From: Aureococcus anophagefferens
Taxonomy: Eukaryota; Sar; Pelagophyceae; Pelagomonadales; Pelagomonadaceae
Direction: 5' to 3'
Length of the DNA: 64,000 bases
Assembly (NCBI RefSeq): GCF_000186865.1
Contig: NW_008705567.1
Coordinates: 1,690,117 to 1,754,116 of the forward strand
In this document: one piece after another, positions 22,663-46,600 of the stretch
How the letters are laid out: each line of letters opens with the position of its first letter
Position numbering within the stretch: position 1 is the stretch's first letter
Program-made: the position numbers and the translations under genes
Notes under the pieces: model-generated
What the model saw: only the letters and a program-made list of their open reading frames with translations
What the model was told of the DNA's origin: nothing
Database searches by the model: none

Positions 22663-25600
22663 ATGCCGTCGGCGCCGCTGATGCCGGCCGTCGCGCCCGT
22701 GGCCGTGCCGCCGACGGTGCGCGTGCGCGTCATCGACAGACACACGCAAAAGAGCCTCGACGACGTCGCCGTCGTCGTCTTCGTGCCCGCCGACGACCAC
22801 GCGCCCATCGTCGTGCCGCTCGCCGGCGGCGCCGCGCAGATCACGACGGACAAAGACGCGAAGCTCGCGGCGCTGCAGACGCTGCCCGCGCGCAAGTTCC
22901 TCGTGCGCGCGACGGCGCCGGGCTACGCGCAGACGACCTACTGCGACGGGCCCATCTCGCTCTACTACGAGCACGTCGTCGTCGACGCCGAGGGGACGCC
23001 CCAGAAGGAGGTCGTCGTGGAGATGGAGCGGCGGTGCGTGTGCGTCTGGCTCAGCTGCCGCGACGCGCGCACGGGCGACATGCTGCCGACGGCGAAGGTG
23101 CGCCTGCGGGACACGCGGGGCACGGGCGCGGCCTTCGTCTTCGACAAGCCGGGCGAGCACACCGTCGACGTCGGGCGGCCGGACGCGCTCGGCGACGACG
23201 CGGTCTACGCCGTCGAGGTCGAGCTGTCGGGCTATTTGCTGTGGGGCCCGAAGACGGTGACGCTGACCCACGGCGCCGTCGTCGAATTACACGTCGATCT
23301 CCGGGCGACGGACGTGCGCGTGGACTGCCGCGACCTGAGGACGATGCAGGCGCTGGACGACGTCTTCGTCACGCTCGTCGCGGGCGACGAGCTCGACGCG
23401 CGGAACGACGTGCTCTTCCTCGGCGTCGGGCCGCGGCGCGTGGCGGCCGTGGACCTGGAGAAGCCCTACCGCATCGAAGCGACGGCGCCGAACATGCGGC
23501 AGGTGTCGGCGACGAGGCCCGCGATCTTCCGGGCCGGCGACTTCGAGCGGTCCTGGAGCTCCGCGAGTGGCGACGCGGCGCCGCTGCTCGTCCGCGTCCA
23601 CCTGGAGCCCATCTCCGTCCCCGAGCCCTTCCCGACGCCGGAGCTGCCCGTCTGGGGCTGGCTGCGCCTCGGCGACCAGCGGCGCGACCCCGACGAGCCG
23701 GACCCGGAGGAGAAGCCCGTCCCGGACGACAAGTGGGGCGAGGCGACGGTCGTCATCACGGTCGTCGACGCGACGGTCCGCGACGCGCCCGTGAACCTCC
23801 GCGGGGCCCGCGTCGTCGTCAACGGCGCGGTCCTGTGTGGAAATCAACCACTGGTTTGGGGGGTCCTGACCAAACTTCAGAACTCTCTATCTCGGTCAAA
23901 TCGAAGTCGATTCGGCTGATTTTTGGACGAATCGATTGCTCTCATCGAGTTCTCGAAGCACAGCAGAAAGCCTTGCGTCGGAACGGTCGCATACGCGCAC
24001 ATTGAAGTCGGGTTGAAGATTTGGTTTCCACACAGGCGCGGTCGCGGGCAAGACGGGCGACGGCGGCGAGCCCCTCGCGGCCAAGATCCGCGCGCCGCCC
24101 CACGTCGACAAGTCGTCGACCGTCGCCGTGACGGCCCGCGCGGAGCTCGCGGGCTACTGCGGCGCCGACGAGTTCACCGCGTCCACGGCGCGCGTCCACG
24201 TCTTCGCCGGCGGCAGCGAGTCCATCGTCGTCGCGCTCCGGCGCACGACGCTCGCCGTGCGCGTCATCCGCGCCGACGACGAGCACCGGAGCTTCCTCCC
24301 GGGCGACGTGCAGCTCAAGGTGACGCCGACGCACGCGTCCGCGCCGCGGCCGGGCGTCGCGCCGCGGCGCGCGCCGTTTCTGAGCGACGACGACCTCTTC
24401 CTCGACGTGCTCCACGCGCAGGCGACCTTCGACGGCACCGTCGCCGCGCGGCGCGGCGGGGAGCGCGGGGCGCCCTTCGTCTACGACGTCGTGTCCGTCG
24501 ACGGGAGCGTGTGCTTGAAGGACGTCGCGCGGGACGCGCTCGAGTCGCGGCGGCGCGTCGGCTTCGCCGAGGCCGTCGCGCACGCGCTCCAGTCGCGCCC
24601 GCTGGACATCGGCGAGGCCGTCGCGTGCCTCCACGAGCACCGGGGCACCTACGTCGTCGAGTGCAGCGCGAAAGGGTTCCGCCTCGCGGGCGCGGACGAC
24701 GGCAACTCGCTCACGAAATTCTTCTCGGGCCGCGACTTCGCCGCGCTCGGCGGCCACTGCGTCGCGCTGCCGCTCGTCCTCCCCATGGAGCCGTCGAGCG
24801 CGCCGCTGCACATCGTCGCGTGCGTCGACGCCGTCTCCGGGGAGCGCGTCGCGGCGACGGTGGCCGTCGGCGGCGCGACGGCGTCCGTCGACGCCGAGGG
24901 CGGCGGCGCGGCCGTCGACGTGCCTCTACCGCCCGGCTGCGCCTGGACGACGGTCAAAGTGGTGGCCACCGCGAAGCACTGGGTCCAGGTCGGGCCCTAC
25001 GACGCCGCGGTCCGCGCGGACCGGAGATGCGAGGTCACCGTGAAGCTCCGCCGCGCGGACGTCGTCGTCCACGTGCTCTCCCAGAACCGCAAGAAGCGCC
25101 TCAAGGGCGCGGCTTTGCGCCTCACGAAGTTCTTCCAGGGGTCCCAGCGGGACGACCACGTCGAGCGGCGCATCGAGGCCGCCGTGCCGCTGGCCGTGGA
25201 CCCCGGCGCGCGCTACCGCCTCTCGGCGTCGCTCCGGAAGCATCGCCAGCTGTCGATGACGCAGCCCTTCACGGTGACGGAGCAGATGTTCCGCGACGCG
25301 CACGCGCGCGGCGAGACGGCGCCCCTGCGCATCGCCGTCGACATGGACGTCGCCGTCGGCGCCATCGATCTGGTCGTCGTCGACGTCGCGGGCGTGCCGG
25401 TGCCCGCGGCGCGCGTCACCGCGACCTTCGTGGACGCCCGCGCGCCCCCGGTCGTCGTCGGCCACCGCCGCGGCGTCCACGAGCTCGCCCTGCCGCCGCC
25501 GCCGCCGCGGGACCCCGCCGCGCCGCCGCCGCCGCCCGGCGGGAAACGGGGCGACCACGCCGCGGACTTACGGTGCGACTGCGAGGGCTTCGTCATGGTC

Positions 25601-28600
25601 GGGGCAGCACAAGGGTGATTCAACGTCGCTTCAACGTGCGTGTTCCGCGCGCGCGCGTTCTGGAGAAAGCATCCACGCTTCGAGACCGTTCCGAGAGATG
25701 ATCGCTCGTCCAAAAATCAGCCGAAACGAGCGGAAACCGACCGAGAGAGGAGCCTTTGAAGTTGGGAAGTTCGCACCCTTTTGCTGCCCAGGTCATGGTC
25801 TCGCCGCCGCGCGTGCACCTCAAGGCCGGCCGGCTGCGGAAGACGACGGTGGTGCTGCGGCGCACGGACGTGGCCGTGACGCTCCGCGACAACCGCACGG
25901 GCGCGCCCGTGTCGACGACGCGGCGCGACGCGCCGACCAGCGTCCGCGTGGAGCTCGTGCCCATCCGCGACGACGCGGCGCTCGAGGCGGAGCTGCTCAT
26001 GGGGGGCGCGGCCCACGCGCCCTTCGCGCCGCCCGTCGTCTTCGAGCGGGGCGACGACGCGCGCGCCGACCGCTTCGGGAATCCCAAAACCGTCGCCGTC
26101 GGCGCCGCGTACCGCGTCCGCGTCGTCGCGGACGAGCGGCTGCGGCTCGTGGCGCCGATCGACCCGGTCGTGTTCGACGGGTCGGTCTTCGGCCCGCCCA
26201 AGGACCTGGCCCCCATCGAGGCCCTCATGCTCGAGGCCGCGCGCCTCGCGAAGCGCGGGCGCGATCCTTTGGCCGACGACGAGCTCGCGTGGGAGATGCG
26301 GCGGCGTTTAGCAGCGGTGCTCGACGTGCGCGTCGAGCCCATCGTCTGCCACGTCGTGTTGGACGTCGTCGACGCGCGGACGAACCTGCCGGCGGACGAC
26401 GTCGTCGTGAGCTTCTCGCACGCGCATTTCGGCACGTTCCGCGCGGGCCACCGGCGCGGCGAGCTCCTCGACGTGCCCTGCCCCGGCGGCGGCGCCGCCG
26501 TGGAGGTCGACGTCGTCGCGGAGGCGGCGGACCGCGTCCAGCTCGACCCCAGGGTCGTCACGCTCCGCGCGGGCTGCGGCAACCCCGTGACGCTGTACGT
26601 CCGCGACGCGGACGTCGTCGTCCACTGCGTCGACGCGGACACGGGCGAGGCCCTCGAGCCGGCGAATCTCCACCTGGAGACGGCCGTGGGCTCGCCGCGG
26701 GCGCCGCCGCACGAGTACCTGACGCGCGCGGTCGACGCGTCCGGCCCAGGGCAGCAAAAGAGAGCGAAATTCCCAACTTCAAAGGCTCCGATCTCGGCCG
26801 TTTTCCACTCGTTTCGGCTAATTCTTGGACGAGCGATCATCTCTCGGAGCGGTCTCGACGCGTGGGCGCTTTTTCCGGAACGCGCGCGCGCGGAACACTC
26901 ACGTTGAAGAGACATTGAATCACCCTTTTGCTGCCCAGGTCCGGCCGCGCGCTCGTCGCGCCGGGCGTCGAGTACGCGGTCCACGCGGTCGTGCCGCGCT
27001 ACCGCGCCGTCGGGAGCCGCACGCTCCGCGCGACGACGGCGGACTTCCGGCATCTCGATCCGCACCTGCCCATGCAGTGCACCGTGCGCTTCGAGCCCTG
27101 CGAGGTCGATTTGGACGTCCGCGTCGAGGACATGGCGACGGGCATGCTCCTGCAGCGGGTCCACGTCGCCCTGGGGCCCCACGTGCTCGGGTCCGCGCGG
27201 GGCGTGCTGGCGCCGTTGGCCCTGCCGCCGGGCGCGCGCGACGCGCGCTGGCCCGTGGAGGCGGCGTTCCGGGGCTGGGTGCTGTGCGCGCCGCGGACCG
27301 TGGACGTGGCCGCGGCCAAGGTCCGGGGCGCGCCCCAGATGGTCACGGTGCTCATGCGGCGCTGCGAGGTGCTCGTGGCGGCCGTCGACGCCTTCACGCG
27401 GGAGCCCCTGGCCCACGCGGCCGCGCGGCTCAAGCCCGCGGACGGCAACGACGCCGCGGCGCCCTGGGAGCTCGTCCACGACGACGCGCCCGGCGAGGCG
27501 GGGTTCGTCGTGGACGTCGCGGGCCCGCGGCGCGGCGCCGTCTGCGCGCGGCGCGACGACCGCTACGACGTCCGCTGCGACGACGGCGGCGAGGAGCGCG
27601 GCTGCGCCGTCGCGGAGCTCCGGCGCGCGTCGGGCGAGCACGCCGCGGCCTACGAGCTGGAGGACCGCGTGGAGCTCCGGCGGCGCGGCCAGGGCGACTA
27701 CACGCTCGAGGCGACGTGCGAGGGCTACCGCCAGGCGAGCCACTGCGAGCTCCTGGCGAACGACGGCGTGCGGCCGACCCCGATGACCTTCGCGGTGCAG
27801 GATTTCGTCCGGTTGCCCGCGCGCGAGCCCCTGCGGCTCACCGTGGAGCTCGAGGCCTTGTACGGCCACGCGGACGTGCGCGTCTTGGACGGCGCGGGCC
27901 GGCCCTTGGACGACGCGGACGTCTGGATCGACCGCCACTACGTCGGCAAGCGCCGCGGCCGCGTCCGGCTCCGGCTGCCCGGCGGCGGCGCGCCCCACGG
28001 CGCCAAGGTCGCCTGCGTCTGCCCGGGCTACGTGCTCATCCGCCCGGCGACCGTGGAGCTGCGCTGCGGCGCCTGCGTCGCCGTCGCGGTGGAGATGCAG
28101 CGCTGCGCGGCGCTCGTCCGCGTCGAGGACGCGCGCGACGGCGCGCCCGTCGACGCGCGCGTCTGCCTCGTGCCCCTGCGGTCCGCGGACAGCGGCCACC
28201 GCGCGCCGCCCAAGTGGGTCCAGGTCGGGTCCAAGGTCGAGGCCGTCTACCCGGACTCGGGGGGCTGGTACGGCGCCGTCGTCCGCGGCGTCCACGGCGA
28301 CGGCACCTACGACGTCGACTTCGACGACGGCGCGCGCTGCGACGGCGTCGGGCCCTGGCACGTCCGCGAGCCGGGCAAGGAGGTGCTGTCGAAGCCCGCG
28401 CCGCTCAAGGCGGACCACGACTTCGACGAGACGCTCGACGTCCAGGCGCAGACGTGGTGCGACTGGCGGACGATGAAGCCCGTGGGCGTCGACGTCCAGC
28501 CCGCGCGGTACCGCGTCGTCGTCCACGACGCCTCCGGCGACTACCGCCAGGTGAGCCACCTCGCGCCCGTGGAGATCCGCGGCGCCGAGCTCCTGTCGCT

Positions 28601-31600
28601 CGACGACGCGCTCGCCGCGCACCGCGTGCCCGACAAGGCGAAAGCGGCGGCGCCCGCGGGCCTCTTCGGCGGCCTCTTCGGCACGTCCAAAAAGGCCAAG
28701 GAGACGGCCGCGGCGTCGGGCGCCAGGGCCGCGGCGCTCCTGAACGAGCTCCGCGCGCGCGACGCGCGGAGCCGCGTCGCCGTGCTCGTCGTCAAGGTCG
28801 CGCCGCGGTGCGCGAAGGCGACGATCCAGGTCTTGGACGGCTCGGGCCTCGCGCCCCTGCCCGAGGCGTCCGTGAAGCTCGGCCGCGTGGTCCTGGGCAC
28901 GCGCCGGGGCAACGTCGAGGTCGACTGGGCGAAGATCGCGCCCGGGGACAGTCTGGCGCCCGCGTGCCCGTGGCAGCACGCGGCGGGCGCGCGCGTCACG
29001 GGCTCCGGCGTGCCCGTCGCCGTCGACGCGGCGCTCGACGGCTTCGTGCACATCTCGGAGACGACGGTGCCCTTCACGGCGTCCGGCGTGACGCGCGTCG
29101 TCGTCACGATGCGGCGCGCGACGGTCGCGCTCAAGACGGTCGACTCGGTCACGGGCGCGGCCCTCGGCGACGTCGCCGTGGACCTGCAGCCCCTCGACGG
29201 CCAGGCGCTCGTGTCCTGGCCCCTGGGGCACGTCTACGACGGCAACGACGGCGCGCGGTTGGCCGCGCCGCGCGTCGTCGTCGTCGGGAGCCGCTACCGC
29301 GCGGTCGCGCAGGGCAGCCGCCTGCGCCAGGTGTCGCCGGACCCGGCGGCGGTCATGACCTTCGGGCGCCACCTCTGGGCCAACGGCCTGCCGAGCGACT
29401 GGGACTACGAGCTCGTCGTGCGTTTGGAGCGCCGCGTCACGGCCGTCGACGTCCGCGTCGTCGACGCGGGCCTGAACGACGCGGTGCTCCACGACGCCAA
29501 GGCCGTTTTAGGCGCGGGCGCGGGCGGCGCGTCCTTCAGCGCCGCGGAGGGGTGGACGCAGGACGTCGAGGTCGCGCCGGGCGCGAAGGTGCTGCGCGAC
29601 GTCGCGGCCCGCGCGGCGCTCGAGGGCTACCTCCAGCTCCCGCCGCGGACGCTCGACATCGTCGTCGGCGACGGCGGCGCGCCGCGCGTGCTGCGCATGC
29701 GGAGTCTGGACGTCGTCGTGCGGCCCGTGTCGACCTACGACCGCAAGGCCCTCGACGACGCGGAGTGGCGTCTGGTGGTCGAGATGGCCGACGAGGACGT
29801 CGACGGCGAGGCGCGCGCGCGCGTCGCGGCCGTGCCGCGGTCCGCGCGCGACCGCCAGCGCGTGCGCCTCGGCGAGCGCTACGTCGCGGACGTCGGCTGC
29901 CCCGGCTGGCGCCTGACGACGTCCGCCGCGCGGCTCGTCTTCGACGTCGACGAGCGCGTCGGCGAGTTCGAGGCCCACGCGCCGGGCGACGCCGTGCCCT
30001 TCGAGGTGCCCATGGAGGCGACGACGGCGCTCGTGCGGCTCGCGTCCGTCACCGTGGCGAACGGCGTCGCCGGCGACGTCCGCGACAGCAAGCTGAGCGC
30101 CGCGGAGACGCCCATCCCGCTCCTGGACGTCGTCGCCGTGCCCCTGCCGCGCCTCCTCCACGCGGCGGACAAAGTGGACCTCGAGATCACGGCCTTCGTG
30201 CCCGACCCGTCGCTCGACTTCGTGAGCCCGCGGACCGTGACCGTGAACCCGGGCGCGCGCGCGGCCGACGGCTCCTGGCCCGCGGTCACGGACGTCGACG
30301 CCGTCTTCAAGCGCTTCCACCTCATCGTGACGATCCTCGACGAGAAGCGCAACGAGCTCCGCGACGCGACGTGGACCCTCGACGGCGAGTCGCTCGTCGC
30401 GTGGCGCAAGGTCGCCGAGGGCCACCGGACGCAGCCCATCGGCTCCGGCGGCAAGCACCACGTGCACCTCGACACGCGCTACAGGCTCCGGGTCTCCGCG
30501 TCGGGCCGGTCCCAGGTCGACTTTAGGGAGCCCGTCGAGTTCGTCGACGGCGACTTCACGAAATCCGCGACGAAGGACGGCGGCTGGGAGTGCCGGCGCC
30601 AGATCGTCTGCGTGCCCTGCTGCGCGACCGTCGAGCTCAACGTGCTCGACGCGACGACGCGCGAGTCGCTGCCCCAGGCGGCCGTGGAATTCTACGGCGC
30701 GCGGTCGAAGACGAAGCTGCCCTACCTGCTCTGGAACTCGGAGGGCACGGCGCCCGACGACGCCGGCGTGCGCACGATCAAGCTCGACAACGTGCCCGGC
30801 GGCGGCGACGAGGTCCAGCTCGCCGTGTCCGCGACGCTCCCGGGCTACACGCACATCGACCCGAAACTCTTCGAGCTCCGGGCGACGCGCGCGGACGCGG
30901 CCGTCGTACAATTGGAGCTCCTCATGCGCAAGTACTACGTCGTCGCCGACGTCGTCGACCCCCGCGGCGACGAGCTCCGAGTGAGGGGCGCGGGCGTCGA
31001 GCTCCGGCCCGCGACCCTCGCCGACGCGACGGACGACGTCGCCAAGAGGCAGCGCGCCGCGGCTGTGGTGACGTTCAAGCCCGCGGACGTCACGGGCCAA
31101 TCGCCCGTGCCCGTCGTGCTGGGCGTCGTCTATGATGTGGTCGCGACCCACCTGGAGCCGCCGCGCGCGGTGCAGCGGGAGCACCTCTTCCGCGGCGCGT
31201 GGCGCCCGGGGCCGGAGACGATCTGCTTTCGGGAGGAGGACTTCCACGAGCTCGAGCGGAAGGCGTCCGAGGCCACGCGGAAGATGAAGAAGAACGCCGT
31301 CTCCGACGATCTGCGCTACCCCTTCCTCAAGCGCATCGTCGAGCGGCCGACGTGGCGCGCGCTCCACAGCTGGACGCTCGCCGCGCGCGCGAAGCGGAGG
31401 CCCGACCTGAGAGCGCCCCCGTACGCCCTCAAAGTCCGCGCGATGGCGACGCACTGCGCCGTCGACGTCGCCGTTTTGGACCCGGAGGGCGCCGCGCTGA
31501 CCAAGGCCGCGGTGCGCTACAAAGCGCGCGGCGCGGACGCCTGGTCCGCGCTGGGCGCGCCGCGTCTGGCGGACCTGACGATCCCAAATGGGGGGCTCCC

Positions 31601-34600
31601 GACAGTTATGGCCTTTGAGGCGACGCTCCCGGGCTACCTCTCGGAGTCGCCGACGACGGAGAAGACGCTCTTCGCGACGTACCGCGCCGCGCAGCCCCAA
31701 AACGCCGCCGTCGAGCGCGTCGAGCTCGTTTTACGGCGCGTCGACGTCGCGATCCGCGTCACGGACGGGGACGGCGCGGCGCTCACGCGAGCCAAGGTCA
31801 CGCTCGCGCCCGACGACGCGCGCGCCCCGGCCCCCGCCGACGGCGCCGCGGCGCCGGCCGCGGCGCCCGTCGACCCGCCCCCCGCGGCCATCGCCGACTC
31901 GGACGACGAGGACGCCGCGGCCGACGCGGAGCTCGAGATCGACGACGACGGCCTCTACGGCCGCGGCCGGCGCCGGCGCCGCCGCTACCGGCTCGCGGCG
32001 TCGTCGCCGGGCCTCCAGCCGCGGACGTCACTTGTGGCCATCGCGGACGCCGGCGTGCGCCAGCACTGGGCGGCGCGCGGCGTCGACGCGCCCCTCGTCT
32101 TCACCATCGCGCTCGCCAGGGCCGTCGCGCACGTCGGCGTGACCGTCCGCGACCTCGCGGGCGCGGTCCTTCCCGACGCCGCGCTGGAGGTCGCCGGCCA
32201 GAAACTCCGCGCGGGCGACCACAGCGTACCGGCGGCGCCCCTCGTCGAGCTCGACGCGGGCGACGCCTTCGAGCGCGCGCTGTCCTCGTGTGTCCTCGAG
32301 GGCTACTTTGCGTGCTCGCCGAAGCTCCCGGGCGTCCTCGCCGCGTCGGCGAGGGACCACGGCGTCGACACGCCCCTGCGGCTCGAGGTCATCATGCAGG
32401 AGACCCTCGTCGTCGTGCAGCTCGTCGAGCGGCGGCGCAACGTGCCCATCGCGGCGCCGCTCGGCTGCAAGTTCGTCGCGACTTTGACGCCCGTCGAGGA
32501 GCCGCCGGCGGAGCTCGAGGATGCGGACCCGCCCCAGGAGTTCGAGGACGTGCGCTACCCGTTCCTCAAGCGCATCGTCGAGCGGCCGGCCTGGCGGGGC
32601 CTGCACTCCTGGGCCGCGGCCGCGGGCGCGGTCCGGGCGCCGAACACGGAGCCGTTCGCGGCGCTCTCCGCGGAGCTCGAGGCGCGGCGGCGCGCGGAGC
32701 GCCTGGCGCTGACGCGGCGCCACTACCCCGTCGTCGTCACGCAGGTCGACGAGCCGGCGTCCGTCGTCTGCGGCGTGCGCTATTTAGTAGCCATCGACGT
32801 CGTCGCGGAGGACGGCTACGCGCCGCCCGCGCTGCGGCAGGTGAGCCACGACTCCGTCGACGCCGCCGCGCTCTTTACGGAGCAGCAGTGGCTCGACCGC
32901 GTCCCGAAGGACGGCTGCGATTTTAGGGTGGACCCCGTGCCGCTGGTCGTGAAGATGGAGCGCGACGCGAACTTGATCCTCGACGCGCGCGACGCGGACT
33001 CGGACGCGCCGCTGCCCGACTGCAGCGTCGAGCTCGGCGGCGTCGTCTTCGGCACGCAGCGGGGCATGCTCGATTTGGACGACGACATCGAGACGCTCAT
33101 GGTCGGCGACGAGGACCATCTGGACGACGCGCTGACGACGCGGACGCCGACGCGGCGCGGCCCGCCCGCGGCGACGCGGCGCGTCGAGCTCCGCGGCGAG
33201 CTCCGGGGCTTCGTCCAGGTGTCGCCGCCGGCCGTGGACATCGACGGGCGGCGGCGCACGTCTCTGGTCGTGCTGATGCGGCGCGCGCTCGTCGTCGTGG
33301 ACGTGCGCGACGGCGGCGGCGACGAGAGCCTGTTCGAGCGGCTCTTCGCCGCGGAGAGCTCCGCGAAGTGCGTCGTCGCGCTGACGCGGACCGACGACGC
33401 GCACAAAGAGCCGCTGCGGCCCGTGCGGCCGCCGGGCGACGGCGAGGCGCCGGTGTTCGCCGTGGAGCCCGACGCGGCCTACGATCTCGAGGTCTACTCG
33501 AAGGACCGCGTGACGCACCGCCGCGCGCTCCGCCTCGACGGGGGCCTCTTTTTAGCTTCATCGGAGCCCCACGCCCTCGTCGTGCGGCTGCTGCGCTCGA
33601 CGGTGCGCGTCGACCTGTCCGTCGTCGACGCCGTCACGAAGGCGCCCCTCGCGGGGCGGGCGGCCGTCGGCAAGACGGACGTCGGCGAGGCGCGCGGCGA
33701 GGTCGACGTCGCGCTGCCGCCGGCGGACGCCGGCGTCGTGCGCCTGCCCCTGCGCTGCGAGCTCGACGGCTACGTGCTGCGCGCGCCGCGTTTTGTGGAT
33801 TGCGCGCGCGGCGCGGTCGCGCGGTGCGCTTTGGAATTGCGGTCCGCGGACGTCGCGGTTAAAGTCGTCCTCGCGGGCCCGCGCCACGGCGGGCCGGACA
33901 ACGCCGACGACTGCGCGGTCGCGCTGGCGCCGCGGCGGAGCGGCCAGGCCGTCGCGGCCTTTGGCGCCGGGCCCCTGCGGTCCGTCGCGCGGGTCGTGGA
34001 AGGAGCGGCCTACGCGTGGGCCTTGACCGGCGACAGCGGCGACGCCTACGCGCTCGTCCGGGAGGACGCCGAGTCGCGGCCGCGCTTCCAGGCGTCGGAC
34101 TGGGACGCGCTCGAGCGCGACGAGCCCCTCGAGGTCGTCGTCCGCGTCGCGCGGAAGGCGGGCGAAGCAGCGGTAGCGGTCGACGCGGACGCGCCCGCGG
34201 CCGCGGTCGTGCTGGAGGTCGTCGACGGCGACGGCGCGGCCGTCGACGCCGCGGAGATCTACGTCGGCGCCGTCAAGCTCGGCACGAAGCGCGGCGCCTG
34301 CGCCGTGCCCGTCGCGGACGGCTTCGAGAGCGGCGGGTTCGCGCACGCGGACGTCGCCGCGCGGTGCCCGGGCTACGCTCTGATCGGCCCGAAGCGCGTC
34401 CGGCTCCAGCCCGAACGCGAGGGGCCCACGACGTTGCGCGTCGTGCTCCGCGCGGCCCGGGTCGCGCTGCGCGTCGTCGACGGGTCGCTCGACGGCGACG
34501 GGTCGCGAATGAAGGAGCCGCTGCCCGGCGCGTGGCCCGAGGTCCGCGGCCTCGGGTCCTACGACGCGGCGCTGTCGGCGGTGGACGGCGAGGGGTTTTG

Positions 34601-37600
34601 TATTCTGGACCCCGACGCGGCCTACCGGCTGAGCGTGCGCTGGGACGCGCTCGGCCGCGGGCCGGGCGCGCGGTACCGCGTCCGCCGCGCGACGCTCTCC
34701 GACGACGGCGCCGCGGACCCGGCCATGGCGGGCCGGACGCGCCTCGAGTGGGCCGCGGGCTTTGGGGACGACGGCGCCGTGCTCGCGCCGGGGCACCTCG
34801 AGCTCTGGCTCGCGCGGGGGCGGGCCGCGCGCGCCGCGGGCGCGCCGCACGAGCTCCACACGCCCTACGGCGCCGAGCGGGCGCTCCTGCCGCTCCTCCT
34901 CGCGCGGGAGGACGACGACGCGTCCCTGGACCTGCCCCGGCGGTTCCGCGCGTGGGCCTCGGACGGCGACGTGTCCGACGGCGTCTTCGCGGAGGGCGTG
35001 CGCCACGTCCACGCGAGCCTCGCGGACTTGCCCGTCGACGAGCTCGCCGGCGTCGCCAAGGCCCTGCGGCGCGCCGTCGGCCGGGCGCCGAGGGACGCCG
35101 ACGCGGCCGCGGCGGCCAACGGCGTCGTTTTGGCCGTGCCCGCGGCCGCGTTCGAGCGGCCGGGCGACGTCCGCGTGGACGTCGAGGTCGAGCCCGTCAC
35201 CTGCGAGCTGCTTTTGGAGGCCTGCGAGGAGGCGACGCGCGTCGAGATCCCGCTCCACGCCTGCCACGTCGTCGCGGCCTGGGAGCTCCGCGGCGAACTG
35301 TCCGCCGCGACCGAGACCCTCGAGCGCGCGCGCGGCATCTTCCAGGTCGCCGCGCCGGGCGGCGGCGCCGCGGCGACGCTCATACTCAGGCTCGACGTGC
35401 CCGGCTACGCGCCCTGGGAGGCGCGCGTCGCCGGCCGCGCGGGGCGGCGCGCGAGCGCCGTCGCGGCGCTCCGCGAGATCGCCGCGGCGATCGAGCCCGC
35501 CGCGGCGCCCGCGGACGCCCTCGCGCTGACGAATAAGGCGGAGCCGACGACGCTCGTCGACGTCTGGGACGCGTCGAGCCGCGCCCTGCTCGCCGCGGGC
35601 GAGACGGACGCGCGCGACGTCGCGCCCGTCGTCGCGGAGCTGCCCAAGTACGTCCTCGTGAGCCCGCTGACCTTCCCGCTCAAATGGAGCGGCGACGTGC
35701 GGCGCGTCACGCTCCACATGCGCAAGGCGACCGTGGTGGCGACGGCCTACGACGCGCGGGGCCGGGGCCGCGCGGCGCCGTTCGCGCGCGTGTCCGTGCG
35801 CCGCGACGACGACGACGACGGCGCCGCGGGCGCGGTCGTCGCCGCGGCCGCGGGCCACGTCGAGGCCGACGTGTCCCTCGGCGCGGCCTATAGTCTGACG
35901 GCGGCGGCCGACGGCTGGGCCCAGGTGACCTACGAGACGCGCGCGCGCTTCGCGCCGCGCCACTTTCGCCGGCAAGAGCTCGACCGCCGCGCGCCGCTGC
36001 CGCTCCGCGTGGACCTGGAGCCGACCGTGGTCGACGTGAATTTGGTCGTCGTCGACGCGGCGACGGAGGAGGATCTGGACGAGGCGCTCGTGTCCATCCA
36101 CGGTATCGACGTTGGCGAGAATAGAGGAATAGTGACGCTGGACCTCGCGGAGCTGCGCGCGCGGGGCGCGGGCGCCTGGGTCGCCAAGGACGGCGCGCTG
36201 GCGCTGCCCCTGCGCGTCAGTGCGCGCCTCGACGGCTTTTTAGACGTGGAGGAGCACCGCTGGGTCCGCGCGGGCGCGCGCGAGCCGGGGACGGCCGCGG
36301 CGACGTGCACGGTGCTGTTGCGGCGGTCCGAGGTCGCGGCGTTGTGCGTCGACGCGGCGAGCGGCGACCCCGTCAAGGATTTAATTTCGGTGACCCTCAT
36401 CCCCGAGTTCGGCTGGGCCGAGGACGCCGCGACCGCGGCCGCGAAGGCCGCCGGGTCCGTCCACTTCGACCGCGTGTCGCGCGCGGACGTGCTGCGGTGG
36501 ATCGCGGCGGAGAAGGACGAGGCCGAGGCCGCGGACCTCTTCGACGACGAGTTCGCCGAGCCCCGGCCGGCGATCAACGCGGCCGTCGTCGCGCGCGAGG
36601 CGACGCTCCGCGCGCTCGCGACGCCGAGCTGCTCCACGAGGGAGCTGCTCAAGGCCCTCGGCGACCTCGCCCCCGCGGACGTGCCCGGCGACGAGCTGCG
36701 GCGCGTCGTCGACGAGATGTCGACGCACGGCACGCGGAGCGTCGCGGTCGGCGCGCGGTACGCGGTCCGCGCTAGGGCAGGAAAAGAGTGCGACATGTCC
36801 AACTTCAAAGGTTCCTCTCTCGGCCGTTTTCCGCTCGTTTCGGCTGATTTTTGGACGAGCGATCATCTCTCGGAACGCTCTCGAAGCGTCAACGCTTTTC
36901 CCGGAACGCGCGCGCGCGGAACACTCACGTTGAAGCGACGTTGAATCTCTCTTGTCCTGCCCAGGTCCGCGCGAGCCACGTCGACTACGTCGCCGCGGAT
37001 CCCGCGCAGTTCGTGCGCTTCGACGCGCGGGGCTGGCGCTCCATCCCGCCGGCGCAGCCGCGCGTCGTGACCATCCCCGTGACGCCCGTCTTCGTGGACG
37101 TCGCCATCACGGTCGTCGACGACGCGACGTCGTCCGAGGTCGAGGACGCGGCCGTGAGCTTGGGGGACGAGCGCCTGGGGCTGACGCGCAAGGCGCGCCT
37201 GCGGTCCTTTTTTACGAATTCCATCGGTCCCAAGGACGTGGCCGTCGCGCTCGCGCACCCGCGCTACGTGCTGCTGGAGCCGCGGACGGTGACGCTCGCG
37301 CCCGGCGCGGGCGAGACGTCGATCGCGTGCCGCGCGCGGCGCGCGACGGTCGCGCTGCGCCCGACGCGCGACGGCGTGCCCGTCGACGGCGCCGTCTGCG
37401 CGTTGAACGACGTCGACGCGTCGCTGCCGCGCGGCGCCGGCGTCGAGCTCGGCGCGGCGTACGTCGTCTCGGCGACACACGACGCGCTGCTCCAGATCGA
37501 GGCCCGGACGCTGAGCTTCGACGAGCACGACTTCCGCGGTGTTTTGGACGCATCCCAGCCCCTCATCGTCGACGTCCCCATGGAGGAGCGCGGGTCATAC

Positions 37601-40600
37601 TTCACCGTGACCTGCGTCGACGAGGTCTCGGGCGACGACGTGCCCGAGTGCGAGGTCCGCGTCGGCGACCACGCGTTGGGCGTCGCCCGGGGCCCCGTCA
37701 ACGAGGTCGCGGTCCGGCGGCCGGGCCACAAGGGCCCCATCCGCGTCGTCGCCGTCGCGCCGGCCTACGTGCTGGCGAGCGCGGCGGTGATCGCGACGCC
37801 GCGCGGCGCGCGCGGCGCCGCGGACGCGACGGTCGACGAGTTCGACGCGGAGGTCGCGCCGCCCTGCAACGACGTCCAGGACGACTGCCTGACCTGCGTC
37901 TACGCCGCCCTAAAGCCGAGCGCCGGCGCGGACACGGTGCTGGAGCTGCGCCTGCGGCCCATGCGGGTCGTGGTCGCGGTGACGCACGCGTCGGAGCCCG
38001 CCGCGGACCTCTCGTCGACGCACATCGCCGTCGTCGCGCGCGACGGCCTGCGGCGGCCGCCGGCGAATCTAGTCATCGAGCGCATCGACGTCGAGGAGCT
38101 GCGGGAGACGCCCCAGAAGCCGCCGCTGCCCACCGCGGCGTCGTCGCGGAGCGTCGCGTCGCTGGGCAACGTGACCTTTGACGGGATGCACAAACAGCAA
38201 AAGTGGGCCTGGCTCGTCTCCGGCTTCCCGCCGAGCCGCGACGGCTACTACGTCGTCGCGCGCCACGCCGCGGCGCGCGCGCGCGACGTCGCCGCGTTCG
38301 GACTCGAGGACGTGCTCAGGCGGCCGCGCTTCGACGCGCTCAAGTGCGACGTGCTCCTGGAACCCGTCGACGGCGGCGTCGACCTCGATGTCTGCGATGT
38401 AGATGTGGAGGACCAGGGGGCGCTGGCGAAGCTGCCGGCCGCGGACGTCGCGCTCGGCCACCACCGCGTCGGCGCGTGGCGCGGCCGCGTGCAGCTCATC
38501 GAGATCGCCGGCGGCGGCCGGCCGCGCCACCTCGACGTCTCGAGCCGCCTGGCGCGCTTCGTCCTCGTCGGCTTCGGGCCGTTGAGCGCGGGCTTCGCGG
38601 GGTCGCGCGCGCCGCCGCCGCTCCGGGCCGCGCACGAGGCCGCCGTCGACGTGGGCATGCGCCGCGCGATGGCGTCCTTCGTCGCCCGGAACCGGAGCGA
38701 CGGGGCGACATTGACGGGCTACACGACGACGCTGCGCGTCTACGGCGGCACCGATGCGGAGACCGTCGTCGCGCGCGACGGCGAGGCCGTCGCCGTCGTC
38801 GCGGGCGCGCCGCGCGCGGGCGCGATCGCCGCGGTGCTCGACGGCGCGGCCCTCGTGCGCCTCGACGACGCCCCGGGGGAGGACCGGCGCGTGCCGCTCC
38901 GCCTGCTGGCGCGGCGCCGCGGTTCCTTCGGCGATGTGCCCGCGGAGCTGCTGCCGGGCGACCGCGTCGACGCGCCGGAGCGGCTCTACGTCGTCGAGTG
39001 CCACAAGGAGGGCTACCGCCAGGTGTCGCACCGCGTCGAGGGCACGCTCGAGCCCTTCGCGCTGCCGGCGAGCCTCTTCGCGGGCAACCGGTCCGGCGGC
39101 CCCGTGATCATCGACGTGTTCGTCGAGAAAGCCGCCGCGGAGCTCTTATTCGACGTCGTCGACTCGGACGGCGCGGCGCTCGAGGGCGCGGCGCTCGAGG
39201 TCGACGGCGTCGCGTTGGCCGACGGCGCCAGGAGCTGCGGCGTGCCCATCGGCGCGGCGGGCGTCAGCGACGTCCAGGTGGCGGCGTCCCTGGCGGGCTA
39301 CGCGCAGCTCGCGCCCGCGGGGCCGGTCCGCGTCGACGCGGCGGCGCCGGGCCCGACGAAGGTCGCCGTCGTCCTCGAGCGCTACGTGCTCCACGTGGGC
39401 GTCCTCGCCGCGGACGGCGCCCCGGCGAACGGTGCGACGGTCACCGCGCGCTTCGACGGCGCGGGGACGGCGCTGGGCGCCGGCCCCCGGCGGCGGCCCT
39501 ACGTGCTGCCGTCGCGCCGGGGCGCCTACGTCGTCGAAGCGGCGCTCGAGGGGTCCAAGCAGGTCGACCACCTGGACCCCGTGGCCTTCGAGTCCCTGTC
39601 CTGGTTCGCGTCGCCGGCGGCGGCGCTGGCGGACCTGGCCCAGGCGTCGGAGGACGCGGCCGCGTTCGCGCGGCGCGACCGGAGCCACGCGCCGCGCGAG
39701 CGCGTCGCGCGGCGGCTCTTCTTCCGGCGGCAGGGCCTCGCCTTCTACAAGTGGCGCCTCGAGACGACGTGCCTCGACGCGGACTGGGACGCGGCGGCGC
39801 CCCGCGGGAAGCACGCCTTCCTCGTGGTCCGCGTCGCGGCGACGGCGTCCGCGGTGTCCGTCGACGTCGTCGACGTCGACGACGGCTCCGCGGTGCCCGG
39901 CGCCGTCGTCACCTTGAACGGCGTGAGCTTCGGCACGCAGCGGGGCGCCGTCGACGCCGCGGCTGCGGGCTTCGCGCGCGACGCCGCGGGCCGGCTCCCG
40001 AGCGCGGAGGCGCGCTTCGACGGCTACCACTCCGCGGATCTCCTCGAGCGGCGGGCGGGCCGCGCGACGGCTTTGACGTTCAAGCTGCGGGCCCACCCCG
40101 TCGTCTGCCGCGTCTTCGAGCCGGCGCGGGGCGCGCACGCCGGCGGCGCCGTCGCGCTCCTCGAGGGCGCGGACGCGTCCGGCGCGCGCCTGGCGGGGTA
40201 CCTGCGCTTCGACGCGCAAGGCGCCGCCGCGGGCGCGGTCGGCCGCCGCGGCGACGCCGCGGTGCTGCCCCTCGCGGGCCGCGTCGTCAAGGGGGAGCTG
40301 GAGCTCAGCGCGGCGCGCACCGTCGACGCGCGGGCCGTGCTCCGCGCGACGCTGGGCGCCGCCGGGGACCGCGGCGTCGACGTCGCGGGCGCGTTCGGGT
40401 CGTGGGACGCCGACTGGGACGGCAAGCTCGCGCGCGGCGAGCTCTGCCACGCCTTCGCGTCCCTGCGCATCGCGCTCGACGCCGCCGAGGTCGCGGCGAT
40501 CCTGGCGCTCGTCGAGGACGACGGCCAGAAATCCGACGTCTGCGCGCTGCTCCGCGGCGGCGGCGTCGACGCGTCGCTCTTCGTGCGCGCGCGCCTCGAG

Positions 40601-43600
40601 CACGCGCTCCGCCGGTTAGATTTAGAACGGGGCGTGCTCGTCGAGGCCGTCTTCGCCGAGTGGGACGCCAACGGCAACGGCCTCCTGTCGCGCAAGGAGC
40701 TCAAGGCGGGCCTCGCGACCATGGGCCTCTTCGAGGGCGTCGACGACGCGGACGTCGACGCGGTCTTCGAGCGGACGCGCGCGAGCCGCGCGGACGGCGT
40801 GAGCCTGCCGGACTTCATCGCCTTCCTGGGGTGGTCGCCGGCGGCCGTGCTCGCGCGGCGCCTGCGGGGCGTGCTCCTGAAGGCGGAGCAGCTCGGCACG
40901 TCGCTGGACGCCGCGTTCGCGGCGTGGGACGACGACGGCGACGGCCGCGTGTCTCCCGCGGAGCTCGCGGCGGGGCTCAAGGGGCTCCGATCCTTCGGGA
41001 ACCTGCTCTCGGGCGACGGCGCCGCGAGCGAGCGCGTCGTGTTGGAGCTCGTCAAGCTGTTCGACGTCGACGGCGACGGCACCATCTCCGTCCGCGAGCT
41101 CTACCGCTTCATGGGCCGCGACGCGACGGTCGTGACGGAGATGCGGCTGCGCCGCGTCATCCACGGCAGCGGCATCGGCGCCGAGGAGGCCTTCCGCCAC
41201 TTCGCGGGCGCGGCGGACGAGGTGAGCAGCGCGGACCTCGCGGCGGGCGTCCGACGGTTGCCCAACTTCGAGGACGTCACCGAGGACGACGCGGCGAAGC
41301 TCGCGGCGCTCTACGACGCGACGGGCGACGGGACTACTTCATTAAACGAGTTCGTGCGCCAGGTCGGCGCGACGGCGGACGTCGGCGAGGCGGAGGCGAC
41401 GCTGCTGCTGAAGCTCCGCGGCGCGGTCAACGAGCCCGCGGCGCCCGGCGAGCGGCCCCGGGGCTTCCGCGCGTTCAAGCTCGCGTGCCGCGCGCGAGCG
41501 TCCGGCGGCGCGCTGGACGCGGACGCGCTCGGGCGCGTCTTCCGGGACCTCGGCGTCGAGGACGCGCCCGCGGCCATGCTCCGCCTACTCGTGGCGCGCC
41601 TCTCCACAAAACCGACGGTCGCCGTCGACGACGTGCTCGCGTTCGCGCGGCGCGGCGGCGTCGGCACGCCCCAGGACGTCGCGACGCGCCTCGGGGAGCC
41701 GTCGCCCCACGACGGCGCCCTCAGGGCGCATCCCGACGCCGCGGCGGACAAGTTCGGCCGGCTCGTCGCGTCCTACGAGGCCGCGGGGCTCGACGTCGGC
41801 GCGTTCTTCGCGTCGCTCGACGCGAACGGCAACGACGCGATCTCGCCCGGCGAGCTCTACGCGGGGCTGCGGAGGCACGACGCCTTCGCGGACATGACGC
41901 GGCAGGACGCGCTCCGCGTGCTGCGCCACGTCGACAGCTCGCGCAACGGCGCCATCGAGGTCGGCGAGCTCGAGGCTTTCGCGCGCGACTACAAGAAGCG
42001 CGGCGAGCAGACCGCGGACGTCGCCGCGGGGCCCTGGACCGAGGCCTTCGGGGCGGCGCGGGCCGCGGCCGCGCTCGTGGCCTTCGCCGACGACGGCGGG
42101 GCGCTGGCGTCGCTGTTCTCCGGCGCGGGGGCGCTCGGCGCGGCCGCGCTCCTCGACGCGTGCCGCGCGACGGAGTGGCCGGACCTCAAAGTTTTGGAAC
42201 AACGGGATCTCGAGGCGATCATCGCGCAGGCGGGCAGCGACGACTCGCTCGACGCGCGCGAGCTCCTCGCGTTCCTGGGGACCTGGCGGGCCTACAGGGC
42301 GACCTTCGCCGGGAACGGATCCGACACCGCGGAGACGTACGCGACGCGCGCGGGCTTCGTTGTGCGGAAGACGGCCGTCGCCGACGTGCGCGGCACGTCC
42401 GCCGCGGGAGCGTCGGACCGCTGGGATCTGGACGTCGCCTGGCCCGAGGCCGCGGACGTCCGCGCGCTCCGGGACGCGGCGACGCCCGAGGCGCTGGAAT
42501 TGCTGGTGCGCGGCGCGGAGACCGCGGGCGCCGCGCCCGCGCAGCGGCCCTTCGACGACGTGACGCACGCCATAGCCGTGCACCTCCACCCCCACGTCGC
42601 CGCGCGGCGCCAGGTCGACTTCCCCGCGGGCGGCGACGCGCGCGAGCTCGTCGCCACGGGCGACCCCGGCTACGCGGTCCGCCTCGGCGACGGCGGCGAC
42701 CGCCGCTGCGTGCGCAAGTGGCGCCTCGGCGCCGTCGGCGCGTTCAAGGGCACGGCGTGGACGGACGCGTCGACGCCCGTGACCTTTTCCGACGCGGCCT
42801 TCGACGCCATGCGCGAGGCCGCGCGCGCGAAGCAGGAGGAAGAAATCCACGACCCGCGGTACCGCTTCTGCGCGCGCGCCGCGCGGCACCGGCTCTGGCG
42901 CGGGCTGCTGACGTGGACGCGCGTCGCCGGCGCCGCGCCGCCCCCGAGGGCGGACCCGCTGCTGGCCATCCCGCTGGAGATCCGCGTGGGCGCGACGTCC
43001 GCGGTCGCGAAGTTGGACGTCGTCGACGACGAGGGCCGGCGGCTGCCGGAAGCGCGGGTCACCGTCGACGGCGCCGACAAGGGGCTCGCGCGCGGGTCGC
43101 TCGCCATCGAGACGGAGGAGGACGCGTCGGGCGACGTGGCCGTGGATTTTGGCGCCGTGTTAGAGGGCTACGTCCAGCTCCCGCCGACGCGCGTCGTCCT
43201 CGAGGGCGGCCGCGAGACGCGCGTGTCGCTCCGCATGCGGCGCTGCGACGTCCACTTCTCCGTCGTCGACGAGGCGACGGGCGACGCGCTGCCGGCGGCG
43301 GAGCTTGAGATCCAGAGCGACGGGCGCGCGGACGCGCTGCGGGGCGCGGGGGTCGTCACGGTGCGGCCCGACCGCGGCTACCGAGTCGCGGCGAAGCTGC
43401 CCGGCTGGCGCCAGGTCGACGCGGACGTCGCCGCGTGGCCCGCGGCGGCCTTTTTGGAGGAGCGGGGGCGCGTGGCCTGCGTCGTGCGCCTCGCCCACGC
43501 CTCCGTGCCTTTGGTCGTCGACGTCGTCGACGCGGGCGACGACCACGCTCCGTTGGCGAACGCGCGCGTGAATCTGGGCGGCCACGCGTTCGGGGCCGTC

Positions 43601-46600
43601 GCGCCGGGCGCGACGCTCGAGCTGCCCTGGGCCTGCGCGTCGGCGCAGACGGCCGTCGCCGTCGACGTCGGCGGCGACGACACCTGGCTCCTCCTCGGCC
43701 CGCTGTCGCTGGACCTGCGCGACGTCCCCGCGGAGCCGCGGAGCATCACGATCCGCGTGCGGCGCGCCGCGGTCGTCGTCGACGTCGTCGAGGACCGCGC
43801 GGGCGCCCCGGCGCAGCGCCTCGTGCACGCGACGGTCACTCTCGTGCCCGTCGACGGGTCGTCGGCCTGCCGCCGCGCGACGGCGCCGTCCGGCGACGCG
43901 CTGGCCGTCGTCCCCGGCTCCTACGACGCGGCCGCGGCCGCGCCGGCCATGGTCCAGGTCGGGGAGTTGAGGGCGGATTTGGGCGTGGACCGCTTCCGGG
44001 CCCTGGCCGACGCGCGGCAGCCGCTGACGCTGACGCTGCGCCTCGCCGTGTCGTCCGTCGACGTCGCCGCGCGCGTCGTCGACGGCGCGGGGGGGGCGCT
44101 GGAGAGCGCGGCGCTCGCTTTGAACGGCGTCGACTACGGCCACGGCCGGTCCGTCGCCGTCGAGCTCCCGCGCCTCGCGCCGGGCGAGCCCACGCCCGCG
44201 CGGCTCGACGTGGACGCGGAGGCGGCGCTCGCGGGCTACGTCCAGGCGCCCGAGTCGCGGCGGCAGCGCGTGTCCCGCTTGCTCCCGTCGAACGACGTGC
44301 TAGCGCCGCGGCCGCCCGTCGTCGTGCACGTGCTCATGCGCGCGACGCGCGTCGTCGTGCGCTGCGTCGACGCGCGGACGCGCGAGCCGCTCCCGCGCGC
44401 GACGTGGCGCCTCGTCGCGGCCGACGGCGCCGCGGACGTCGGCGGGCCCGACGCCGGCGTCGCCGTGCGGCTCGGCGTCACTTATGAGATTGCCGCATCC
44501 CTACGAGCCTGGCGGCCGACGTCGGCGACGACGCCGCCGGGCGCGAGCGATCCCGAGCGCGCGCGGCCGGGCGCGTTCGCCGTCCAGTTTTCCGGGAGCG
44601 ACTTCGACGGCGACGAGCCCGGGCCTCTCGTCGTGGAGGTCGCCTTCGAGCCCGTCGCACTGAGAGTTACAGTGGTGTTGGTGGAGGAGACGCCGACGGA
44701 CGCGGCGACCTTTTTAGACGACGTCGCCGTGTCCCTCGGCGGGACCGCGGCGACGCGCGACCGGGCGCTGACGCTGCCCCTCGAGGCGCTCGCGGCCGCC
44801 GGGGGCACGCTGCGCCTGCCCGTGGCGGCCCTCGGCTCGCGCCACGTCCTCGTCGGGCCGTCGGAGCTCGTCCACGACCTCGAGGGCGCCGGCGTCGACG
44901 GCGACCACGAGGCGACGCTACAACTGACGATGCGCGCGGCGTCCGTCGAGGCGGACGCGCTGGAAGCGAAGGACGACGGCGTCGCGCTGGCCAAGGTCGA
45001 CGGCGCGACGGTGGCCGTCGCCCCCTACGACGCGGGCTACGCCGGCGGGACGCTCCTGCTCGACGCGGGCCGGCCGCGGCCGGCGGTCGTCGAGCTCGGC
45101 CGCGCGTACCGCGTCTCCGCGCGCTGCGACCGCATGCGCCTCGTCTCCGGCGACCGGTTCGAGATCAAACCGGCGGACGTGCTCGCGCTCCCGCCCGGGG
45201 GCGTGTCGACGATTTCCGTGGTCCTCGCGCGCATGCTCCGGGCGACGGCGACGCTGTGCGTGCGGGCGCTCTACGACGTCGCGAGAGACCGAGAGACGCC
45301 GCTCCAAAGCGCCGCGCGCGCCTACGACGGCGCCGCCTTTCTCGCCGTCGACGCCGCGGGCCGCCACGGCGAGCTCGACGCGGCGCACGAGGACCCCGTG
45401 CGCGACGACCCGCCGTCCGAGTACGCGGCCGTGACGATCCGCGCGGCGTCGGACGAGGGCCGCGGCGAGGGCCAGGGCATGGGCGTCGCCCGGGGCGCCG
45501 TCGAGATCAGCGTGCCCCCGTCGGGCGCCGTCGAGGCGCGCGCGGCGCTCCGGGGCTGGGCCCAGCTGCCGCCCTACAAGTTCGTGGCCCGCCCGGACGC
45601 GTCGGAGCCCGCGCACGTGGCTCTGGTCATGGTGCCGGCCCTCGTCGCGCTCCGGGCCGTCGACGGGGCCACGGGCAAACCCTTGCAGGACCAGGCCGCC
45701 GTCGAGGCCTGGCTCGAGCCGGCGGACGACGGCGACACGGCCGTGCGGCTCCCGTGCTGCGCCGCGCACGGGCCGCCCGCGCGGGTCCGCCCGGGCGCGC
45801 GGTACGTCCTCAAAGTCAAGGCGCCGAAGCGGCGCCTGGCCTCACCGGCGCTCGTGGGCGGCGTCCTCGGCGGCGGCGCGCATGGCGACGAGCTCGTCTT
45901 CGAGGACGAGCACTGGTGGGACGCGTCGACGAAGCTGAGGACCGCGTACGGCGAGCGGCCGTTCTCGTCGAAGGAGCCCGTCGTGCTGGAGCTCGTCGCG
46001 GCCCTCGAGCCGTCGCGGTCGAAACTGCGCATCTCCGTCGTCGCCGACGACGCGCCGTCGGCGCTGGGCGCCGGCGTCCGCGTGCGGCGGCGGGGCCTGC
46101 CGGACCTGCGGTGCCGGCCGGGCGACGTCGCCGTGGACGGCCTCCCCGCGCGCCAGGTCGAGGCGCTCGTCGACGGGTTGCTGCCGGGCCACGTGCAGCT
46201 CCGGCCGCGCGACGCCGTCACGCTCATCGCCGGCGGGACCCAGGACGTCGTCGTGCAGCTGCGGCCCGCGTCGGTGGTCGCGCGGTGCGTCGACGCTAGG
46301 TCCCACGCGCCGCTGGACCTGGGCCGCGTGCGCCTCGCGCCCCGGGAGCCGTCGGCCGCGGGCCTCGAGCATGCTCGAGGTCGGCCGCCCGTCGTCGTCG
46401 ACGTCGCGGCCTGGCGGCCCTGCGTCGTCACGTCGCACGTCGCGGACGGCGCGGCGCCCGACGATCCCGCGCTCCACGCGGTGCCCGCGCGCGTCGGCGG
46501 CAAGCTCGTCGCGCCGGTCTACGCCTACGGCGTGACCTTCGACGACGGCACGCGGGACGTCGTGCCCGCGGCGGCGCTCCGCGGGGCCCGGTGGGGCGTC

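Follow-up and report, generated by a model that had tools for sequence, protein, structure and literature searches.

How a gene comes by its introns is the question raised by a 64,000-nucleotide stretch of the pelagophyte Aureococcus anophagefferens (NCBI RefSeq assembly GCF_000186865.1, contig NW_008705567.1, positions 1,690,117 to 1,754,116 of the forward strand; hereafter the window), in which a giant gene for an EF-hand protein is interrupted by four introns. The bulk origin of introns is a long-standing question, and this genome offers thousands of examples, many of them young and with exact borders. We are highly confident that the four introns are introners, i.e. short non-autonomous DNA transposons, here of two related families (A and B), that are predicted to be spliced out. 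In the copies parsed from this genome, read along the coding strand, the target-site duplication (TSD) starts with GT or GC and the element closes with AG; exact removal restores the reading frame.

Four introns in a giant EF-hand gene

The positions, lengths (203 bp once, 192 bp three times) and 8-bp duplications that a first-pass annotation had given for the four elements were found as claimed, and the TSDs around all four are exact repeats (Table 1). Once the first TSD copy and the element are taken out, the frame is restored at 4/4 sites with zero stops. The resulting stop-free frame spans 8,705 codons when counted from the upstream stop, and the ATG at which the proteins P0155 and P0156 both start yields the protein length given in Table 1. 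Under exact removal intron 1 begins with GC, and using the GT within GCGCGGTC as its start would shift the frame. The G+C content of the four elements is 52.5-58.7%, compared to 75.7-75.8% in two exon stretches. EF-hands were detected in the host protein, which also contains many imperfect internal repeats.

Table 1. Coordinates of the host gene, its introns, the shared core and the empty site (positions are those of the window; TIR, terminal inverted repeat).
Feature	Position	Strand	Details
Giant host gene (EF-hand protein)	22663..49153	+	8,559 aa without the four introns; stop-free frame, shared ATG, EF-hands
Intron 1, GC-AG, phase 1	23825..24035	+	TSD GCGCGGTC 23825-23832; family-B element 23833-24035 (203 bp); TIR CTGTGTGGAAA; second TSD copy 24036-24043; junction continuous in P0155
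Intron 2, GT-AG, phase 0	25592..25791	+	TSD GTCATGGT 25592-25599; family-A element 25600-25791 (192 bp); inverted core; second TSD copy 25792-25799; P0155 continuous over the junction; P0154 contains the element
Intron 3, GT-AG, phase 2	26739..26938	+	TSD GTCCGGCC 26739-26746; family-A element 26747-26938 (192 bp); second TSD copy 26939-26946
Intron 4, GT-AG, phase 0	36765..36964	+	TSD GTCCGCGC 36765-36772; family-A element 36773-36964 (192 bp); second TSD copy 36965-36972
18-bp core CGGCTGATTTTTGGACGA, common to families A and B, in intron 1	23913..23930	+	
18-bp core in intron 2	25706-25723	-	
18-bp core in intron 3	26815-26832	+	2 mismatches
18-bp core in intron 4	36841-36858	+	
Empty site GTGCCCAT	25957..25964	+	occupied by a family-B introner in a related strain (seen in protein P0155)

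With a spliced stretch of 715 aa from the giant protein as query, three proteins were matched. Two of them are NCBI entries that carry the name Ca2-binding protein [Aureococcus anophagefferens], namely P0154, which covers 41% of the query at 81% identity, and P0156, which covers 4% at 100%. Both share long near-identical stretches with the giant protein; their gaps and frame breaks resemble errors of gene modelling, the NCBI models either starting inside intron 2 (P0154) or breaking around intron 1. Other markers of the species gave no name: the plastid domain PF00016 had no match in the assembly, none of the 120 HSP90 matches listed bore the name of a pelagophyte, and none of 33 hits to a glycosyltransferase of the window was named Aureococcus. 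As the first residues of P0154 are read from intron 2 and the protein continues into exon 3, with small differences, intron 2 exists in that A. anophagefferens assembly; the occurrence of the same introns at the same sites in other strains has thereby been checked in part.

The protein P0155 (JGI/ENA), from a 5,122-bp contig, agrees with the giant protein at 955/964 residues and reads through junctions 1 and 2. It leaves the exon after LVPI, and its tail starts directly behind the 8-mer GTGCCCAT. When this tail was compared with the ends of core-minus family-B elements, 33/36 B copies agreed at 11-15 of 19 residues, against 3 for the best A copy. Of 20,000 stretches taken from the window without intron 1, the best reached 7, and a control that included intron 1 reached 14. 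At this one site, in one strain and at the protein level, the strain of P0155 thus carries a family-B introner, with a GT donor as the splice-site rule predicts, where the window is empty.

Two element families and their copies across the genome

The elements of introns 2, 3 and 4 end in C[ATG]GGGCAG or TAGGGCAG and that of intron 1 ends in CTGTGTGGAAA, the TIR motifs of the elements being C[AT]GGGCAGSAMAAG or CTGTGTGGAAA. The first-pass annotation had taken all four introns for copies of one element. This is not supported as put: they fall into two related families with different TIRs. Nor does the near-identity proposed for introns 2-4 hold, as their pairwise identity is only 87.0-88.5%, with intron 2 inverted relative to 3 and 4. 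Plain identity was tried as a measure of kinship between intron 1 and introns 2-4 and was rejected, since the overall value of 51-52% lies within the shuffled control (maximum 57% in 50 shuffles). Consensi built from 45 (A) and 33 (B) full-length copies align with a score of 110.5, compared to a shuffled maximum of 75.5, and with the core masked the score is 117 compared to a shuffled maximum of 102.5 (1,000 shuffles each). Judged by their common core and collinear consensus flanks, families A and B are related. The 18-bp core of both families occurs in both orientations.

Allowing up to 3 mismatches, the core is found 3,968 times in the 49.05-Mb genome, compared to 12 matches for the reversed pattern; exact matches number 1,855, with 0 for the control. 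This abundance, far above that of the reversed control, shows that the elements of the window are not chance similarities and that the genome holds many other copies. The closest copies of intron 1 and those of intron 2 are 94-100% identical to them among the matches listed (40 each). At 60 best-match loci (30 A and 30 B), to which no TSD filter was applied, the TSD agrees at 8/8 positions in 49, at 7/8 in 8 and at fewer in 3. From all fetched loci and the window, 85 distinct copies were parsed (49 A, 36 B). To be included, a copy had to show a TIR signature and a TSD agreeing at 7/8 positions or more; GT or GC was not demanded. Of the 99 distinct cores that no locus end cuts, 83 fall in these copies. 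When the same 353 kb were searched with a profile, 111 matches resulted; 22 scored below 200 bits, some of these being truncated by a locus end.

The median identity to the nearest neighbour is 96.9% among the 49 A copies and 97.5% among the 36 B copies, in a sample that leans to young copies because it was drawn largely from best matches and their neighbourhoods. Together with the polymorphic site, these values support recent activity of the families. The recent insertion proposed earlier therefore stands at the family level, not through the identity of the four window copies. An apparent strand asymmetry of the core along contig C1 was a listing artefact, the reverse-complement pattern giving mixed strands. 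Spread by viruses was likewise considered and dropped: two IMG/VR contigs contain the 18-bp core, blastn extends the match no further than 18-20 bases, and these matches are due to chance; close relatives of this genome may be absent from IMG/VR.

The acceptor end of family A reads ...CTGCCCAG and the opposite end mostly ...CTGCCC[T/C/G]G, while family B has ...CACAG at both ends in most copies. When the second base of the element end is T rather than A or G, ...CCCTG or ...CCCCG becomes ...CCCAG; family B mostly has this T at both ends. The presence of an acceptor appears to be set by this base. On a tree of 48 family-A interiors (one divergent row dropped; 30/44 inner branches poorly supported), the acceptor-end label changes 6 times, compared to a shuffled mean of 13.7 (0/500 as low), so the AG-carrying side is mostly inherited. 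The two TIRs of a copy also co-vary at TIR positions 3-12, as calculated from 90 of 102 copies after 12 with uncertain borders were dropped: 451/510 paired positions are equal in family A (shuffled mean 428.2; 0/2,000 as high) and 348/390 in family B (shuffled mean 337.5; 8/2,000 as high). Recognition by a transposase would explain the co-variation as well as a stem in the RNA would, and homogenisation of the TIRs is a further candidate. A TIR stem appears in 77/85 predicted folds, a number that has no control and that inverted repeats should give anyway.

Splice sites, reading frame and rival explanations

Each predicted intron among the 85 parsed copies opens with the two leading TSD bases, which are GT in 39 and GC in 46, i.e. 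GY (G followed by a pyrimidine) on the usable TSD side in 85/85. In family A, 49/49 copies carry AG at one end only (32 core-left, 17 core-right), and the TSD opposite to that end starts with GY in 49/49. In family B, AG is present at both ends in 28/36 copies and at one end in 8, with a usable GY in 36/36. Across the genome, counting family-A copies with an exact TIR and a TSD position 8 other than A, GY follows the AG end in 1,204/1,227 (98.1%), compared to 21.8% of positions in the giant coding sequence (CDS). Flanks were scored with a positional codon model and regarded as clearly coding at scores over 15, a threshold set by us. For the 63/85 copies with a clear coding signal on both flanks, the flanking strands agree in 63/63, the frame is continuous in 63/63 after exact removal, and the donors are GT in 30 and GC in 33. 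The strand predicted from AG and GY is the coding strand in 58/58 unambiguous cases (35 A, 23 B), and the best joint strand matches it in 19 of the remaining 22 copies. In sense, the core lies on the plus strand in 17 and the minus strand in 32 A copies, and in 17 and 19 B copies, respectively.

Family-A donors among the matches listed (100, from contigs C1 and C2 only) are GC in 59 and GT in 41. In the giant CDS, GT makes up 5.4% and GC 16.4% of positions, so that GT donors are favoured relative to supply. The donors do not show the usual consensus (A 7% at +3, A 14% at +4, G 42% at +5), and those with GT differ from those with GC at -1 and +3 in the manner that codon context would produce. 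In the excerpts of PMC9860276 considered here, GC donors range from 0 to 50.0% among introner families, which places 46/85 at or above the upper end of that range. As GC makes up over half of the predicted donors, introns may be misplaced by gene callers restricted to GT, and the NCBI models are indeed broken at introns 1 and 2. A search for the U1 small nuclear RNA, whose donor-pairing end might be altered, returned no match and was uninformative, as the controls were silent too. The motif TTGAA, which lies near both ends of family A (48 and 46 of 49) and near the right end of family B (35/36), was considered as a branch point and dropped because it is found at the B left end in 2/36 copies only, even though B sits in both orientations in sense.

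These observations suggest a route by which the introns would arise. Insertion of an element into an exon would duplicate 8 bp of the target, and the spliceosome would then use the first two bases of the upstream TSD as donor and the terminal AG of the element as acceptor. Having an acceptor at one end only, family A would be spliceable in one orientation, whereas family B, with ...CACAG mostly at both ends, would be spliceable either way. Exonic copies that land unspliceably would be purged. Purging is favoured because no palindromic target preference of sufficient strength was seen: the TSD ends with RC (a purine followed by C) in 8/36 family-B copies (22%), compared to a background of 21.2%, which indicates that the B transposase reads no palindromic GY target; in family A the value is 16/49, and 33 among the matches listed (100), a mild excess. 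The GY rule thus follows the coding strand. The ends of a symmetric element carry no information on that strand, making purging the simplest cause of the rule.

Several points weigh against interpreting the elements as spliced introners. Frame continuity is expected of any exonic insertion with a TSD and is alone no proof of splicing, so the argument for splicing is borne by the GY/AG strand rule. The giant gene was the sole training set of the codon model, 16/99 uncut cores remained unparsed, and 3 of the 22 less clear copies (L011 and two in L027) disagree in strand, all with negative joint scores. P0155 may derive from a spliced transcript or from a genomic allele that lacks the introns. 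The searches made yielded no transposase with matching ends, the hAT domain PF05699 giving four matches just over the cut-off. Finally, 2/85 copies without coding signal on either side still keep GY-AG.

That last observation also bears on whether insertion is random. Codon periodicity marks a share of 0.85 of scoring windows in the whole stretch (0.78 without the giant gene), 0.79 in locus L045 and 0.80 in locus L046. With about 80% coding DNA and 10.9% of exonic positions spliceable for family A, random landing followed by purging predicts 0.8 x 0.218 x 0.5 = 0.087 exonic survivors vs 0.2 elsewhere, i.e. about 70% of survivors in non-coding DNA, an estimate blurred by UTRs (untranslated regions), which were ignored, and by the small sample (84 kb) behind the coding fraction. 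Observed for family A were 23 copies without GY, and about 29 that look unconstrained (about 2.4%). Given this difference, a strong bias of insertion towards coding regions, or loss of copies elsewhere, is needed in addition to purging. Family-A copies at unspliceable sites are so scarce that purging after random landing seems an incomplete account. The direction of this bias is already known, as the excerpts of PMC9860276 report gene enrichment of introners in 161/175 genomes. It is also conceivable that in this alga any GT or GC suffices as an intron start, GC being the commoner, because the transposon supplies the rest, possibly including a TIR stem in the RNA, and that insertion is directed, with some machinery placing the element into the coding strand of an exon at GY, e.g. 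coupled to transcription or RNA. The 98.1% of exact family-A AG ends with an adjacent GY, the few unconstrained copies and the GY-AG retained in both copies without coding signal fit this idea, which we nevertheless consider unlikely: the ends of B are mostly symmetric and show no RC excess, so that sensing a strand would need more than the ends, and an exon bias combined with purging, or intergenic loss, fits the same numbers. If insertion were directed, thousands of introns would have been placed rather than sorted.

Two further explanations dispense with either the DNA transposon or the splicing. RNA-based spread through reverse splicing of excised introns would agree with copies that lie in coding sequence, in sense and with splice-site-like ends; to our knowledge, it makes no duplication and cannot invert an intron. 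The 8-bp TSDs, complete in most of the unfiltered loci and with sequences specific to each copy, the TIRs and the presence of both core orientations in sense render it hardly credible. Very improbable, too, are unspliced transposon insertions that merely disrupt the gene. The faults of the NCBI models at introns 1 and 2 would be compatible with such a disruption, but the giant frame is open after removal of the elements, the complete strand agreement and the genome-wide GY share require splicing or an equivalent removal, and P0155 is continuous across two junctions. The earlier proposal that introners are short DNA elements with TIRs and TSDs that create introns is thus upheld by thousands of copies, the 8-bp TSDs, the TIRs, exact frame restoration and one strain polymorphism.

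Known introners and likeness to hAT elements

Introners of A. anophagefferens and Micromonas pusilla were reportedly described by Huff et al. in Nature in 2016 as short non-autonomous DNA elements with TSD and TIR, one splice site being said to come from the element and the other from the duplicated target, with mRNA length unchanged. The likeness in features comprises the same species, TSD and TIR, and one element-borne splice site; the present copies show 46/85 GC donors and two families with a common core but different TIRs. The elements are therefore of a known kind, introners having already been reported in A. anophagefferens, which the excerpts of PMC9860276 also mention. According to the same excerpts, Family 4 of Aureococcus sp. 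TARA_AOS_82_MAG_00129 has an 8-bp TSD, both splice sites borne by the element and 12 bp added to the transcript; genus and TSD length are alike, whereas exact removal adds nothing here. The introners of Symbiodinium microadriaticum (PMC9860276, in part) take the 3' site from the element and the 5' site from the TSD and possess TIRs, as is seen here, but belong to a dinoflagellate and have a 4-bp TSD. Introner consensi are described there, as far as the excerpts go, as lacking homology except between recently diverged species of one genus. In the portion of PMC9481584 considered, introns of about 210 bp in Pelagomonas calceolata are compared with the A. anophagefferens introners; this species is likewise a pelagophyte and has introns of similar length. 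Donor or GY statistics for A. anophagefferens are not given in the excerpts of the introner literature considered here, and no novelty is claimed. Beyond the known mechanism, the points of interest are the GC-donor majority, the apparent link between second end base and acceptor, and the small number of unspliceable family-A copies.

Elements of the hAT superfamily have an 8-bp TSD and TIRs starting with YARNG, and an end reading CAGGG is hAT-like. The introners resemble hAT miniature inverted-repeat transposable elements in the TSD (8/8 in 49/60 loci) and in that most non-acceptor ends of family A start with CAGGG. Set against YARNG, the non-acceptor end starts with CA in 32/49 family-A copies, and the acceptor ends, CTGGG and CTGTG, deviate from the motif at position 2. 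Together, the TSD length and the CAGGG end would be consistent with a hAT-like ancestor. No matching TIR pair surrounds the PF05699 matches in the DNA read, which contains only single two-mismatch matches besides ordinary introner copies. A search for KDZ (PF18758) gave no match, with control genomes silent too, and MULE, Merlin and P-type transposases were not searched.

Among the loci with PF05699, a segment resembling a hAT C-terminus (E 1.6e-4) is present in two copies, L048 (C1:938001-948000) and L041 (C13), which are 99-100% identical over 2.3 kb and reflect either a recent duplication or a hAT transposon that was active not long ago. Locus L047 (C6:235501-245500) contains a 1,217-codon open frame with PF05699 just over the cut-off and no matching TIR pair in 10 kb, possibly a domesticated or autonomous hAT gene. 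Outside the giant gene, positions 61709-63013 of the window hold the frame of an RXYLT1/exostosin-like glycosyltransferase, which is 99% identical over 91% to a 29-member protein cluster (JGI and ENA sources).

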